The notes under the pieces: model-generated
What the model saw: only the letters and a program-made list of their open reading frames with translations
Told to the model about the DNA's origin: nothing
Databases searched by the model: none
Translations under genes and position numbers: made by a program
Shown: piece by piece, positions 40,781-48,167 of the stretch
Layout: each line of letters begins with the position of its first letter
Numbering within the stretch: the stretch's first letter is position 1
Source: Deltaproteobacteria bacterium
GTDB lineage: Bacteria > Desulfobacterota > DSM-4660 > Desulfatiglandales > Desulfatiglandaceae
NCBI GenBank assembly: GCA_019309145.1
Contig: JAFDGR010000004.1
Span: 1 to 64,000, forward strand
Length of the DNA: 64,000 nt
Direction of reading: 5' to 3'

Positions 40781-42454
40781 CTACTTGCTCCTCAGGTAGT
40801 CGTGTATGCCCAGGGCGGCACGCTTTCCCGCCGCGATGGCACGAATGGCAATATTCGGACCGGAGACCACGTCTCCGCCGGCAAACACGCCGGGGACATT
40901 GGTGGCCCCTGTGTCTTCATCTATCTCAAAGGTGTTCCAGCGTGTTATATCGAACCTATTGTCCTGGCCCAGGAAGTCCAGGTTTGTGGCCTGGCTGATG
41001 GCGGGCACAATGGTTTCCGCATCAATGACGTATTCCGAGCCTTCGATGGGTACAGGCCGTCTTCTTCCGGAGGCATCCGGTTCACCCAGTTCCATCTTGA
41101 TGCACTTCATGCCGGTCACCTTGCCGTCTTTCCCCAGGATTTCCACAGGCGCGGCAAGGTACTGGAGAATCACCCCTTCATGCTCGGCAGCATCGATTTC
41201 CCACGGGTTGGCGGGCATCTCCTTGCGGGTCCTTCGATAGAGGATGTAGACCTCATCAAACCCCATTCTCCAGCCGACCCGGGCAGAGTCAATGGCCGCG
41301 TTTCCTCCGCCGATGACAATGAGCTTGCCCTTGGCTTCCGGTGCTTCGCCCAGGGCCTGCTCCCGCAGGAAGGTCACGCAGTCTACAATACCCTTGCCTT
41401 CGTATTCGTCCTCTCCCGGAACCCGCAGCTTCAGTCCTTTGTGGCACCCTGCCCCGATAAAGACGGCGTCGTTGTTTTTCCTTAGGTCGTCGAAAGAAAC
41501 ATCCTTTCCCACGCGGGTATTGTACTTGATGTCGATGCCCATGTTGGCGATGAGGTCAACCTCGCGCTTCAGGAGTTCCTTTGGAAGGCGGTATTCAGGA
41601 ATACCCACCCAGAGATATCCTCCGGGTACCGGCAGGGCTTCATAGATCGTGATATTTTCGTAGCCTTCCCTTGCCAGGTCGTGCGCGCACGTCAGACCCG
41701 CGGGACCGGCACCGATAATGGCGATTTTTTCAGAATATTTCTTTTCTGGAGTATCGTAAACAGGTTCTATGCCTTCTTTGATCTCCGCATCGGCGGCGAA
41801 TCTCTTGAGGAAACAGATGCTGATGGGCTCATCAAGGTACTGCCGGTTGCAGGCGGTTTCGCAGGGGTGGGGACACACCCTCCCGATACTGCCGGGAAGA
41901 GGAAGCCGGTCCCTTATGGTGGCCAGTGATTCCAGGGGCTTGCCGTCCGCAATCTGCGCAACGTAAGTCCTGATATTCAGGTGGGCGGGGCAAGCCCGCT
42001 GGCACACGGGCTGGTCTTCCTTGAATATATTGTATTCCCCGGTCCCGGGATTGAAGTAATCCACCGCGGTCCTGAAACCGAACCCCTCGTTGAAATCATC
42101 AAACATGTTTACCGGGCAAACCCGTATACATGCCTTGCAGTCATTGCACTTGGAGTTATCCACGCGCAGGCTGTGTTTCAGGATGTGCGCCTGGACTTTT
42201 CCATCATCTTTTTTGATTTTCTTGAGGTCACTGTAAGGCAGGATCTTGACCTTGTCATGATTGCGCACCCTGTCCAGGGCCGGGTTTACAAAGGCCTTTT
42301 CCGGTTTCACAATCCGGTCCCTCGGTATTCTCTCCGCGCCCAGGGAGGGGAATTTTTCAACGAGGGTAACCTCTGCACCTGCCTCAGCTTTCTCAAGGGC
42401 GGCCTGGATCCCTTGCAGGCCGCCTCCGACGATCAACACATTCTTCTTTTCCAC
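40781..42454 (-). CDS. HdrA-N / GltD-NfnB-like NAD(P)H oxidoreductase
   Basis: A 557-residue protein. Residues 1-90 are a degenerate HdrA N-terminus (VLIVGGGLQGIQAAL, then a diverged segment where HdrA has its Cys/Sec site). Residues about 95-115 form a ferredoxin motif (CNDCKACIRVCP). Residues 145-555 are a glutamate-synthase small-subunit-like module with CxRACPAH, CPHPCETAC, FAD motif GAGPAGL and NAD(P) motif GGGNAAID. Such modules oxidise or reduce NAD(P)H in NfnB and related complexes. Starts with GTG and an AGAGGTG site. No selenocysteine here. Confidence 0.82.
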   Translation of the reverse strand: MEKKNVLIVGGGLQGIQAALEKAEAGAEVTLVEKFPSLGAERIPRDRIVKPEKAFVNPALDRVRNHDKVKILPYSDLKKIKKDDGKVQAHILKHSLRVDNSKCNDCKACIRVCPVNMFDDFNEGFGFRTAVDYFNPGTGEYNIFKEDQPVCQRACPAHLNIRTYVAQIADGKPLESLATIRDRLPLPGSIGRVCPHPCETACNRQYLDEPISICFLKRFAADAEIKEGIEPVYDTPEKKYSEKIAIIGAGPAGLTCAHDLAREGYENITIYEALPVPGGYLWVGIPEYRLPKELLKREVDLIANMGIDIKYNTRVGKDVSFDDLRKNNDAVFIGAGCHKGLKLRVPGEDEYEGKGIVDCVTFLREQALGEAPEAKGKLIVIGGGNAAIDSARVGWRMGFDEVYILYRRTRKEMPANPWEIDAAEHEGVILQYLAAPVEILGKDGKVTGMKCIKMELGEPDASGRRRPVPIEGSEYVIDAETIVPAISQATNLDFLGQDNRFDITRWNTFEIDEDTGATNVPGVFAGGDVVSGPNIAIRAIAAGKRAALGIHDYLRSK

Positions 42455-42458
42455 TTTG

Positions 42459-43241
42459 TTACACCTCTTGGGGAACTCGTTGAAACAGGGGTGACCGATC
42501 TGAAATCCCTTCCACCGCGACCATTCCTTTTCGTTTCAAAGCGGTGATGTAGCGGAAGACCCGCTCAGCCGGGATGGCCAGGGAAGCGGCCAGGTCTTTT
42601 ACTGATTGTGCCCCTTCTTTTAACGCGAGGAGGATCTCCTGCACCTCTGTCTCCTCAACAATAATCATGTCTATTGCACGGCTGAACTCGTGTTCGGTGA
42701 AAATCTCGCCGTACATGTTTCCGGTTGTGAGAAACGGGGTCCTTTTACCGATCACCCATCGGATTTTTTCCCCGGCGAGAACAGCCTCCGCCACCTCCAG
42801 CTTCTTGAAGATGTCTGGGGCATTCAGCCGGTCACCTCCCTGGCCGATGGGACCAAGTTCCCTGATGGTGGCATCAAATTCGGAGATAATCTCCACGAAG
42901 ACAGAAGCTTCACCGGATGAACACTGTCTGAATGCCAGGCGCTCTTCGTTGACACCGATATGCTTCAAGAGTTTTCTCGTCATGTTCATCCTGGCCTGGG
43001 CCTGGTAATTCCCACTAATATAATGGCAGTCTCCGAAATAGCAGCCGACCACCACCAGGCCGTCGAGCCCGTTTTTAAAGGCTTTGGCAATAAGAGCAGG
43101 ATCGAGCCGGCCCGTACACATGAGCCGCACTATCTTGATATCAGGGGTATACTGTAGTCTGGAAACTCCAGCTAGATCAGCAGCTGAGTATCCTCACCAG
43201 GTACAGCAAAAGGTCAGAATCTTGGGGACGAATTCAGCCAA
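42459..43241 (-). CDS. mvhD: selenocysteine-containing MvhD with a C-terminal winged helix
   Basis: A 260-residue protein if the TGA at 43196-43194 (codon 16) is read as selenocysteine. The start TTG 43241 has AGGAGG 6 nt before it. The N-terminus reads [18 protein letters not shown], where MvhD relatives have FxCNWCxY, so Sec replaces the second Cys of the first motif. The second motif keeps Cys (VVGCYFGDCHYISGN). A stem-loop at 43174-43155 lies 19 nt past the TGA. Residues about 195-245 form a winged helix (ALKEGAQSVKDLAASLAIPA). Conventional calling would start at ATG 43130 and lose the N-terminus. MvhD transfers electrons between a donor and HdrA. Confidence 0.85.
43155..43174 (-). promoter_or_regulatory. 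candidate bacterial SECIS in the mvhD-HTH gene
   Basis: Hairpin TAG-CTGGA-GTT-TCCAG-A-CTA on the coding strand, 19 nt after the TGA: a 5-bp core, a one-base bulge, three more pairs and G in the loop. It is weaker than the other three candidates. Confidence 0.45.
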
Positions 43242-43340
43242 TGGAAACCTCCTTTAAGGTCTGTTGCGTGTCGATTGTTGTATGTTGCCCATTGCATCAT
43301 TACATTATTTACCTGATCGAACATTCGACTGCTCGACGAC

Positions 43341-45029
43341 TCAGCCGCCCAGGAACGCGTCGAGTTCGGCGGTTATCTGCTGGTCGGTAAAGGAATTAAT
43401 GGTCAGGGCATGCTGGTAGCAGGTGGCCGCGCATACGCCACATCCTTTACACGCCACATCAATAACATGCACTTTTCTGCCCTTCTCGGTCTGGTGTATT
43501 TCAAGGGCGCCGTACGGGCAGAGGGCCACGCAGAGGCCGCATCCCCTGCAGGCGTCTTCATTTGCCAGCACAGAGATAACCGGCTCCACCACCACTGAGC
43601 CCTTGGAGAGGGGGATGGAGGCACGGGAGGCCGCACCAAGTCCCTGGGCTATAGTCTCTCGGATATTTGCCGGGAAGTGAGCACTGCCACAGATAAAAAC
43701 ACCGTCCGTGGCAAAATCCAGGGGCCGCAACTTGACGTGCGCCTCCAGGAAGAAGCCGTTGTCATCTATCGGGACCCTGAGAAGTTGCGAGGTCTCGTGT
43801 GCGTCCTCATTGGAAACCAGGGGGGTGGAGAGCACCACCAGGTCAGCAGGGAGATCCATATCCCTTCCAAGCAGGGCATGGTGCACCTTGACGCCTTCAG
43901 GGCCCACTTCCGGCGGGTTCGCAGGATCGTAATTGATGTAGCGGACGCCCTTGGCCTTTGAATCCCGGAACATCTCCTCATTTTCAACGCCGTACATCTG
44001 CATGTCGCGGTAGAGAATAGAAACCCGTGCATCGGGAAGGGCATCCCGGATGAGCATGGCATTTTTCACCGCGGTCTGGCAGCATATCCTGGAACAGTAA
44101 GGTCTTTCTTCATTCCGGCTGCCAACGCACTGGATCATCACGACGTTTTTTATCTTGGAGTCCAGGCCCTTCTTGAGGAGACTCTCAAGTTCGATTTGCG
44201 TGATGACCCTCTTTCCGTCGTAACCGTACATGCCCGTGGGGACAAACGGGGTGGCGCCGGTGGCAACCACGATGACGCCGATGTCTATATTCTTTACGCC
44301 CGTCGCGGTCTCAACATCCACCTTGTATTTCCCGATAAAGCCGTCCACGTGTTTTATGTTGGCCTTGGTGAAGACGGTGATTTTGGAATGATCGTTCACA
44401 GCCTTAATCTTTTCAAGGGCAAATGCTTCCGCGCTGTTCATGCCGGGTCCCAGCTTGTGGAGATTGTTGAGCATGCCTCCGAGGTTTTCCTCTTTCTCTA
44501 CTAGCACGACTTCATAGCCACGGTTCCCAAGGGCCAGGGCCGCAGTCATACCGGCAATCCCTCCTCCAATCACCAGCCCGCGGGGACAGACTTCCGACAT
44601 AATGGGTTCCTTGGGTTCCAGCAGGGCCGCCTTGGCAACCCCCATGCGTATGAGGTCCTTGGCCTTGGCGGTGCCCGCCTCTTTTTGGTGCATGTGTACC
44701 CAGGAGCACTGGTCCCTGATATTGGCCATTTCAAAGAGGTAGGGATTCATGCCCGCTTCCGCACAGGAACTCCGGAAAAGGGGTTCATGTGTCCTGGGCG
44801 TACAGGATGCCACGACCACCCGGTTGAGATTCTGCTCCTTGATTCCTTTTTTTATTTCATTGATTCCCGTCTCGGAGCAGGTGTAAAGGTTCCTCTGCAC
44901 GAAAGTCACATGGGGCAGGGTCTTGGCGAACTCCTCAAGTTCCTCCATCTCCAGATACCCGGCAATATTGGACCCGCAGTGGCAGATGAATACCCCAATC
45001 CTGATGTCTTGATCATTGTTCTCAGGCAA
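43341..45029 (-). CDS. hdrA: HdrA second-half flavoprotein with two ferredoxin motifs
   Basis: A 562-residue HdrA homologue of the type that starts RIGVFICHCGSNIAG. It contains [12 protein letters not shown] (about 75), RDQCSWVH, FAD motif [13 protein letters not shown] (about 150), CVGSRNEERPYCSRICC, and C-terminal ferredoxins CRGCGLCVALCP and CKGCGVCAATC. A TTG start at 45029 with AAGGAG 6 nt upstream is preferred; in-frame ATGs at 45050 and 45077 lie inside the upstream gene. It follows the Sec-containing HdrA with an 8-bp overlap and equals the C-terminal half of the large fusion, so the two proteins probably form one split HdrA. Confidence 0.88.
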   Translation of the reverse strand: MPENNDQDIRIGVFICHCGSNIAGYLEMEELEEFAKTLPHVTFVQRNLYTCSETGINEIKKGIKEQNLNRVVVASCTPRTHEPLFRSSCAEAGMNPYLFEMANIRDQCSWVHMHQKEAGTAKAKDLIRMGVAKAALLEPKEPIMSEVCPRGLVIGGGIAGMTAALALGNRGYEVVLVEKEENLGGMLNNLHKLGPGMNSAEAFALEKIKAVNDHSKITVFTKANIKHVDGFIGKYKVDVETATGVKNIDIGVIVVATGATPFVPTGMYGYDGKRVITQIELESLLKKGLDSKIKNVVMIQCVGSRNEERPYCSRICCQTAVKNAMLIRDALPDARVSILYRDMQMYGVENEEMFRDSKAKGVRYINYDPANPPEVGPEGVKVHHALLGRDMDLPADLVVLSTPLVSNEDAHETSQLLRVPIDDNGFFLEAHVKLRPLDFATDGVFICGSAHFPANIRETIAQGLGAASRASIPLSKGSVVVEPVISVLANEDACRGCGLCVALCPYGALEIHQTEKGRKVHVIDVACKGCGVCAATCYQHALTINSFTDQQITAELDAFLGG

Positions 45030-46560
45030 CGGCTTTCTCCTTTTCTCCATTCTCTTGAAAGGCGGTTTCAGCGGCACGCTCCGCGGCGCTCGAGGCCTGT
45101 GCTACGGATTCAGGAACATCCATGGGTGATTCCGCGCACCCGCACACGAAGACGCCTGGAGTCGTGGTATCCACCGGGGAAAGGGGGCTTGTCTTGACAA
45201 ACTGGTAGTCATCAAGCTCGAAACCCACAACCCTGGAAAGCTCGACGATACCCTTGGACGGCGCACAGGCAGTGGCCAGGATCACCATTTCAAACTCCTC
45301 GGCCTTCACTTTCCTCTCCCGTGTGTCTTCGTAAACGACCACCGGGTTATGATTGGGTCCCTCGGTAATTTCAGCCACCCTTCCGCGAACATACGTGATC
45401 CCCGATTGATTGCCGCCCCGGATCTTATACTCTTCGAAACCCTTTCCAACGGCACGGATATCCATCCCGAAGATAGTGGACGTGGTTTCCGGTTCGTGCT
45501 CGTTGGCAATGATCGCCTCCTTGATGGAGTGCATACAGCAGTACCCGGAGCAGAAGGGATAAAATCGAAAGTCCCGTGAGCCCACGCACTGGATAAAGGC
45601 AAGCTTTTTCGCCGGGGCAAAGGACTCCGCCTTTTTCTTCATGTCTTCCAGGGGTTCCACGATGGCCAGGTAAGCCTCGTATTTCTCAGCCCATTTCTTG
45701 TGGTCTTCATCATCGTATTCACCGGACTGAAATTTTCCGTAGAAGGTCTTTGAATCCTCGCCATGCTTTTCTTCGTACCGGGCCAGGGCCTTGGTGGATT
45801 TCTTTGCCTTCTTTTCCAATGCCTGGATTTCCGCTTCAACAGCCAGGTCTGAGGGCCTGTCCACGTGCCCGCCGGTCGGACCGCTGGCACTCAGGAGCCG
45901 TTCAAACTGGATAGCGGTCACCACATTGGGTATTTCCTGGAATCGGTATTCCGGGATCCGTGACGGGTCAAAGACATCGTATCCTATGGCCACAATAATG
46001 GAGGCAACGTCCAGCTCCAGGATCTGATCTTTCTGGTCAAAGTTGATGGCGTCAGCCTGGCAGGTCTTTGCGCAGATGCCGCATTTCTTGCCGTTTAACT
46101 GGCGGCAGTAGTCCGGATCAATCGTCCGGGTGGACGGGATTCCCTGGGCAAACAGGGGATAGATGGCTTTCCTTGTGCCCAATCCTTCCTCGTAGGCATC
46201 GGGAACGATTGTCGGACATGTCTCACTGCAGGCGCCGCACCCGGTGCACTTGTCCTCTTCAACATACCGTGCTTTCTTGCGTACCGTGACTTTGAAGTCG
46301 CCTGCCGCTCCCTCTACCTTTTCCACCTCGCTGTACGTCAGGAGATTTATGTTGGGATGTCGACCGACATCCAGCATCTTCGGCGAGAGTATTCAGATGG
46401 CACAATCGTTGGTGGGAAACGTCTTGTCCAACTGGGCCATCTTGCCGCCGATACTGGGGAGCTTTTCCACCAGGTGTACCTTGATCCCCATATCGGCGAG
46501 GTCAAGGGATGATTGCATCCCGGCGATTCCACCGCCAATCACGAGTATGTCCTTGCTCAC
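45022..46560 (-). CDS. hdrA: selenocysteine-containing HdrA
   Basis: A 512-residue HdrA when TGA 46395-46393 is read as Sec (codon 56). The N-terminus is [22 protein letters not shown]; the Sec lies in TNDCAIUILSPKM, where HdrA normally has Cys. A ferredoxin motif [12 protein letters not shown] and the CVGSRD/FCSGYCC segment follow. A charged helical insert of about 75 residues ([19 protein letters not shown] onward) separates two standard segments and is unusual. The GTG start at 46560 has GGAGG 8 nt before it; ATG 46599 is an alternative. Without Sec the gene would be called as two pieces. HdrA carries the bifurcating FAD in methanogens. Confidence 0.88.
46355..46372 (-). promoter_or_regulatory. 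candidate bacterial SECIS in hdrA
   Basis: Perfect 7-bp stem GGATGTC-GGTC-GACATCC on the coding strand with G at the start of the loop, 20 nt after the TGA at 46395-46393. Confidence 0.65.
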
Positions 46561-46602: not shown

Positions 46603-47721
46603 TTATTTCATACGTTCCGCCACCAGGTCATACAGATCGTCAATTTCCATTTTTAGGTCAAAGGCCGATTTTGCACACCGGAAGTGGATCTGGCACTTGG
46701 GGCATGCCGTGATAAGGGTTCCCGCACCGGTGCCGCCCGCTTCGTTCAACCGCTGAATCTGGATTTCTTTGGAACAACTGGAGCAATTCATCCAGCCGCT
46801 GGTTCCGCAGCAGACCGCGTTTTCACGGGAGCGGGGCATTTCGACCAGTTCAACGCCGGGCAGGGCTTTCAAGATATCCCGGGGGGCATCGTAGATGCCG
46901 CTGAGCCGCCCCAGCCTGCACGGATCGTGATAGGTCACCTTTTTTTCCGATTCCTCGAACTCCACGGCCCCCTCCTGGATTTTTTCTGAAAGAAAGTCCA
47001 GGATATGGACCGGTTCGAATCCAAGCTCACCGAAATACTCGGGATAAATGTTTTTGAAGGTGTAGTACCCTTCCGGGCAACTGAAAACAACCCGTTTCGC
47101 GCCTGTATTCCTGATAATATCGATGTTCAATTGGGCCAGCTTTTTGAAGGTTTCTTCATCGCCGTTCCAGAGGGCGTCGTGGCCGCAGCATCGTTCATCA
47201 TTGCTCACCACCGGTTCAATACCGCACCCGTTCAGAATCTTCAGAACGTTCCGGGCGTTCTGGACGGAGCCTGCATCAATATCCCTGAAAATAACGTCGA
47301 AGTAAGGCCTGCACCCCACGAAGTAGAAGATATCTCCTTTTTCAACCGTCTTTCCGTCCTCGATCCAGAACGTCCTCTGCTGCGTGATGTCCTTGGTCTG
47401 GATGGCCCAGATACTGTGGAGCATCCCGTTGTGGGTTTGCATGCCGTCAAGTCCTGCGGCACGGGCCTCCCCTCTGATAAGGCGGATGAATTCCGGGAAG
47501 TTAATGTTGGCAGGGCACCGCACGCTGCACTGGGCACAGGTCAGGCAGTTCCAGATGGTGTCATCGGAGACCTCTTCCAGGCCGTAAAGCGACCGTTCGA
47601 TAATCTGCCTTGGCGAAAAATCAGGAAAGACCCTTGCCACGGGACAGCTCCCGGTGCAAACACCGCAGTCAAGACAGTAATAGGTCTGGGTCATATCAAT
47701 CAATTCAGGAATAGCAGTCAT
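46603..47721 (-). CDS. HdrD-like (HdrC-HdrB fusion) iron-sulfur protein
   Basis: A 372-residue protein combining an HdrC part and an HdrB part. Two ferredoxin clusters (CLDCGVCTGSCP at about 16-27, CLTCAQCSVRCP at about 59-70) are followed by two CCG domains (VGCRP, RCCGHDALW; then DPCRLGRLSG, CCGTSGWMNCSSC, CPKCQIHF). HdrD-type proteins reduce disulfides with noncubane clusters. In this operon it is the only candidate disulfide/thiol active subunit. AGGT lies before the ATG. It sits between the two HdrA/MvhD blocks. Confidence 0.9.
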   Translation of the reverse strand: MTAIPELIDMTQTYYCLDCGVCTGSCPVARVFPDFSPRQIIERSLYGLEEVSDDTIWNCLTCAQCSVRCPANINFPEFIRLIRGEARAAGLDGMQTHNGMLHSIWAIQTKDITQQRTFWIEDGKTVEKGDIFYFVGCRPYFDVIFRDIDAGSVQNARNVLKILNGCGIEPVVSNDERCCGHDALWNGDEETFKKLAQLNIDIIRNTGAKRVVFSCPEGYYTFKNIYPEYFGELGFEPVHILDFLSEKIQEGAVEFEESEKKVTYHDPCRLGRLSGIYDAPRDILKALPGVELVEMPRSRENAVCCGTSGWMNCSSCSKEIQIQRLNEAGGTGAGTLITACPKCQIHFRCAKSAFDLKMEIDDLYDLVAERMK

Positions 47722-47747
47722 TACAAACCTCGAAATGTCGGCGTTTC

Positions 47748-48167
47748 TCAGGCCGCCTGTCTCAGGGTGGACGGTCCAAGAGCCTTGATTTTTTCAGTAA
47801 AAGAGGTGGCCAGTTCCGCGAAACGTGTCCCTTCAGCGGAGGAAACCCACTCCAGGCTCAGCCTGTCCAGGTTAATGCCGAGAACCTTTACCAGTTCCTG
47901 GGTCATTTGAAACATCCTTTCGGCCTTTACATTACCGTCCAGGTAATGACAATCGCCGATGTGTCACCCGGCCACCATCACGCCGTCGGCCCCCATTTGA
48001 AAGGCCTTGAGGATGAAGTTGGGATTCACGCGGCCGGAGCACATGACCCGGATGAGTTCCACATTGGGTGGATACTGAAACCGGCTCACGCCTGCCAGGT
48101 CGGCTGCTGAATACGCGCACCAGTTGCAGGCGAATATAACAATCTTGGGACTGAATTCTTCTCCCAT
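47748..48167 (-). CDS. mvhD: selenocysteine-containing MvhD
   Basis: A 139-residue MvhD when TGA 47966-47964 is read as Sec (codon 68). The first motif has Cys ([16 protein letters not shown]14 and C17), the middle VMCSGRV has C43, and the second motif is VAGUHIGDCHY, with Sec where relatives have Cys. The reading continues 71 residues to a natural end, the full MvhD length of about 140. A SECIS-like hairpin at 47948-47930 lies 15 nt after the TGA. AAGGAG precedes the ATG. MvhD bridges hydrogenase or another donor to HdrA. Confidence 0.92.
47930..47948 (-). promoter_or_regulatory. candidate bacterial SECIS in mvhD
   Basis: Perfect 7-bp stem CATTACC-TGGAC-GGTAATG with GG in the loop, 15 nt after the TGA. 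It has the canonical distance and size for a bacterial selenocysteine insertion element. Confidence 0.75.

Follow-up and report, generated by a model that had tools for sequence, protein, structure and literature searches.

A putative selenocysteine-containing MvhD-winged-helix protein with a TTG start codon in an Hdr gene cluster of a Deltaproteobacteria bacterium

Gene organisation and domain architecture

The window, the whole 64,000-nucleotide stretch of DNA analysed here, carries on its minus strand a putative MvhD-winged-helix selenoprotein gene of 260 codons plus stop (42459-43241), recognised by the FlpD profile and by alignment with the MvhD structure 5odc_D. The predicted start is a TTG codon (43239-43241, minus strand), separated by a spacer of 6 nt from the ribosome-binding site AGGAGG (43248-43253, minus strand). 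An in-frame TAA (43254-43256, minus strand) lies directly 5' of this site, the minus-strand frame from 43256 reading TAA-AGG-AGG-TTT-CCA-TTG, and between this TAA and the UGA at 43196-43194 (minus strand) the TTG at 43241 is the sole standard start codon. The UGA is codon 16, at the second Cys position of a CxxC motif, and reading through it as selenocysteine (Sec) gives a 260-residue product ending at 42459. Internally, the frame offers a GTG at 43130 and an ATG at 43121, and no Shine-Dalgarno-like site was found upstream of either. The original prediction had held that normal gene calling would choose an ATG at 43130 and lose the motif; the loss of the motif stands, but the codon at 43130 is GTG and the in-frame ATG lies at 43121.

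The FlpD/MvhD [2Fe-2S] domain spans residues 8-130 (42852-43220, minus strand) and was matched by Foldseek to 5odc_D with an E value of 1e-12. Against the extended protein, the Pfam FlpD profile (PF02662, gathering score 22.3) scored 166.7 bits over profile positions 1-123; a protein started at GTG 43130 scored only 113.6 bits, over positions 32-123. Alignment of the extended N-terminus, the check proposed with the original prediction, was run using phmmer and was gap-free from residue 1 against 5odc_D. Cys stands under the UGA in three MvhD structures (5odc_D, 8rvu_F and 7bkb_F), as had been anticipated for codon 16, and C13, C16/U, C42, C67 and C72 are invariant columns in the family alignment.

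A C-terminal helix-turn-helix (HTH) domain had also been claimed, and a winged-helix fold is indeed predicted at about residues 195-256 (42474-42659, minus strand) behind the fully matched FlpD profile. The AlphaFold (AF2) model has two domains and a mean pLDDT of 82.5, with values of 83-95 in the C-terminal block. Foldseek matched the C-terminus to short winged-helix chains with TM-scores of about 0.8-0.86 (normalised to target length) and E values of about 0.02-0.05, and a Pfam TrmB match to this region was below the cut-off.

The gene neighbours encode HdrA-like, HdrC/D-like and GltD-like proteins. Immediately upstream is an HdrA-like flavoprotein gene (43341-45077, minus strand; HdrA2 model, E 7e-159), and downstream lies a gene for an HdrA/GltD-like NAD(P)H oxidoreductase (40781-42454, minus strand). 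Four candidate Sec sites occur on the minus strand within about 9.3 kb; the other three are in an HdrL-like CAMU motif (52454), in an MvhD with the motif GUHIGDCHY (47966) and in an HdrA CAIU motif (46395), each with a SECIS-like hairpin.

The genome encodes the machinery for Sec insertion. A tRNA-Sec was found over the cut-off (73.6 bits), as were SelA, whose gene is partial and at a contig end, SelB, with two matches (G000:C232 and C257), and SelD, which itself contains a TGA and is present as two Sec-containing genes (G000:C250 and C89). The assembly is fragmented, with an estimated contamination of 5.96%, and the paired SelB and SelD genes may be true paralogues or contamination.

The candidate SECIS hairpin

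A candidate bacterial SECIS (bSECIS) hairpin, UAGCUGGAGUUUCCAGACUA (43155-43174, minus strand), has its GUU loop 27 nt after the UGA. Its core, CUGGA-GUU-UCCAG at 43171-43159, has a stem of 5 bp. The published bSECIS model (PMC13188914, Fig. 2) specifies a loop of 3-9 nt with G in the first two positions and a stem of 4-16 bp, located 16-37 nt after the UGA, and the loop, stem and spacing of the hairpin all fall inside these limits. The calculated energy is -4.0 kcal/mol for the core alone, -6.5 kcal/mol for 20 nt and -11.3 kcal/mol for 38 nt, against a bSECIS limit of -7.5 kcal/mol, the lower stem of the longest form not being common to the orthologues. Among the hairpins of the four Sec sites it has the least favourable energy (-4.0 for the core and -6.5 when extended, versus -9.4, -9.1 and -6.6 kcal/mol), in agreement with the earlier remark that it is less perfect than the others. 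When 60 nt were folded for minimum energy, the hairpin did not stand out (z -0.97), and the minimum-energy folds of many orthologues favour another pairing; the hairpin is short. An Rfam scan of the 64-kb window at gathering scores gave no matches.

Codons 24-28 (GCT GGA GTT TCC AGA) had zero nucleotide differences in 26/26 non-redundant orthologues; no other synonymous window in the first 135 codons is as constrained. The motif CTGG.GT..CCAG was present in 37/38 CxxU genes and 0/9 CxxC genes (Fisher p 7e-9, a value that ignores relatedness), the CxxC control set being small and mostly from more distant subfamilies. The peptide AGVSR is common to most of these nine CxxC genes despite the missing hairpin motif. 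With wider sampling and a looser, automatic hairpin test, 68/83 CxxU and 2/9 CxxC sequences passed; 13 of the remaining CxxU sequences share CTGACCTGGCTGGGGTCAG, in which inspection revealed CUGACC-UGGCUGG-GGUCAG, 19 nt after the UGA and inside the bSECIS limits. Pair counting gave no information on covariation in close orthologues, whose stems are almost invariant; in one relative (L126) the U-A pair is replaced on both sides by G-C, giving CGGGA-GUU-UCCCG.

Two other relatives were observed in this comparison. L052 (G060:C199) is a CxxC protein, sister to a CxxU branch, which still carries the hairpin-forming CCGGAGTTTCCCGG, and may have reverted from Sec to Cys while keeping a relic SECIS. 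L021 (G000:C115) is a divergent MvhD with the motif CNFUGY, whose SECIS departs from the common motif.

Conservation of the reading frame and alternative readings

In orthologues from GTDB genomes other than the source, the UGA was found at the same codon in 32/32, and 31/32 shared the start position (23 TTG, 3 GTG and 5 ATG), with a visible, similarly placed Shine-Dalgarno stretch in most. This conservation bears out the proposal that the TTG with its AGGAGG site opens the frame. Over codons 2-15, differences between the window and the orthologues were 0.068, 0.060 and 0.482 at the first, second and third codon positions; the differences lie on third positions, and this segment thus evolves like coding sequence. 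Third-position freedom before the UGA was normal. Exactly one TGA was present in every best match from 61 related genomes (70-99% identity). A CxxW-UGA FlpD string was found in 80/395 genomes drawn from the phylum, and the reversed control pattern in 0/395.

Three other readings of the locus were weighed against these data. Translation might begin at the GTG at 43130 or the ATG at 43121, leaving the upstream UGA frame untranslated; an internal start is what ordinary gene callers would choose, and from there the frame is open without recoding. Such a start would, however, shorten the FlpD domain by its first quarter, including the CxxC motif, and would lack a ribosome-binding site, whereas codons 2-37 evolve as coding sequence behind a conserved TTG, GTG or ATG start. 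We therefore regard it as very improbable. Equally slight are the chances that the UGA is a genuine stop, arising from a sequencing error, a pseudogene or a regulatory short open reading frame. The fragmentation and contamination of the assembly speak for this possibility, but every orthologue found, in independent genomes, has the same UGA, as do two paralogues within the source genome, and the frame downstream of it is conserved. Sequencing error, pseudogene and internal start were accordingly rejected on conservation. Some lineages do recode UGA, yet a general recoding of this codon as Trp or Cys is practically negligible as an explanation in a genome with complete Sec machinery, where four UGAs of the window fall at known Sec/Cys sites, each followed by a SECIS-like hairpin, and where the hairpin accompanies UGA and not Cys codons.

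The Sec reading is supported by the start and UGA conserved in more than 30 genomes, the conserved SECIS-like hairpin, the Cys in homologues and solved structures, and the full Sec machinery. On these sequence grounds, the gene almost certainly encodes an MvhD/FlpD electron-transfer subunit, starting at TTG 43241 with Sec at UGA codon 16.

Family placement and proposed function

Sec in MvhD, VhuD and FrhD has already been published. MvhD is listed as a selenoprotein family with the motif CxxU and two Sec (PMC13188914, Table 1), mvhD1, 2, 3 and 5 of Desulfobacterium autotrophicum are Sec-containing (PMC2702500), FrhD has 19 Sec members in bacteria (PMC1794560), and vhuD of M. maripaludis has two TGA codons (PMC9622424). 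The gene is a well-supported further member. It differs from these published proteins in its fused C-terminal winged helix, in having Sec at the first motif only and in its TTG start. The MvhD of Methanothermococcus thermolithotrophicus (5odc_D) shares its fold and, in the structural match, is 50% identical over the domain, but has Cys in place of Sec and lacks the winged helix. The second MvhD of the window (47721-48167) belongs to the same family and gene cluster, but carries Sec at residue 67, in the second motif, and Cys at residue 16, and groups with the opposite half of the tree. Our search of open-access texts turned up no description of a winged-helix MvhD whose conserved start is other than ATG, although one may exist elsewhere; this fusion subfamily and its easily missed start may be less recognised.

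Ten FlpD domains were found in the source genome, five with one TGA each, three at the first motif (the same first-motif UGA recurring in two paralogues) and the other two at the second. In a non-random sample of 181 domains or fragments, shaped by the searches, positions 16/67 were U/C in 80, C/U in 45, C/C in 13 and U/U in 13, the rest being unclear. In a tree built by a quick method from few columns, with positions 16 and 67 masked, nearly all first-motif-Sec rows were placed apart from second-motif-Sec rows (97*); position 16 changes 4 times on this tree and position 67 changes 9 times. Both motifs carry Sec (CTWUAY + GUxxG[DE]CHY) in L109, L115-L117, L119, L120, L197, L224, L225 and others, and double-Sec relatives have a different SECIS register, CUGACC...GGUCAG. 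After a similar linker, CxxU MvhDs end in one of two C-terminal modules, a winged-helix-like stretch or a double Fer4 domain (L022 versus L052/L093).

From the sequence we infer Sec insertion, complex membership, a direction of electron flow and a role for the selenol, as follows. The ribosome would start at TTG 43241 and meet the UGA at codon 16, where SelB and Sec-tRNA-Sec would bind the mRNA hairpin downstream, and Sec would be inserted to give CxxU instead of the usual CxxC. The protein would most likely dock on the neighbouring HdrA/HdrL-type flavoproteins. The winged-helix domain, as modelled, may serve for docking rather than regulation, given that a Fer4 domain takes its place in other CxxU MvhDs. 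Electrons would then pass between the HdrA flavin and a donor linked to NAD(P)H or Hdr. In homologous MvhD, one [2Fe-2S] cluster takes electrons and feeds the HdrA flavin, and how the gap between cluster and flavin is crossed is described as unknown (PMC12350162, PMC6019823). By analogy with these homologues (PMC12350162), and from its hdrA neighbours, the window protein presumably carries a [2Fe-2S] cluster and makes contact with HdrA. The open-access texts searched gave no direct answer as to which cysteines bind the MvhD cluster. Five conserved Cys/Sec residues (13, 16, 42, 67 and 72) are more than the four ligands required by a [2Fe-2S] cluster; residue 16 could thus serve either as a ligand or as a free redox selenol. 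We tentatively suggest, with more doubt than confidence, that the selenol of residue 16 (67 in other subfamilies) is a direct ligand or immediate neighbour of the cluster, and that a natural selenolate-tuned cluster bridges the gap to the HdrA flavin.

Normal annotation would truncate this gene and lose its redox motif, and the same is expected for many relatives sharing the start and UGA. The division of Sec by motif, at the first, at the second or, in one branch, at both, points to the two cysteines as a functionally critical pair.
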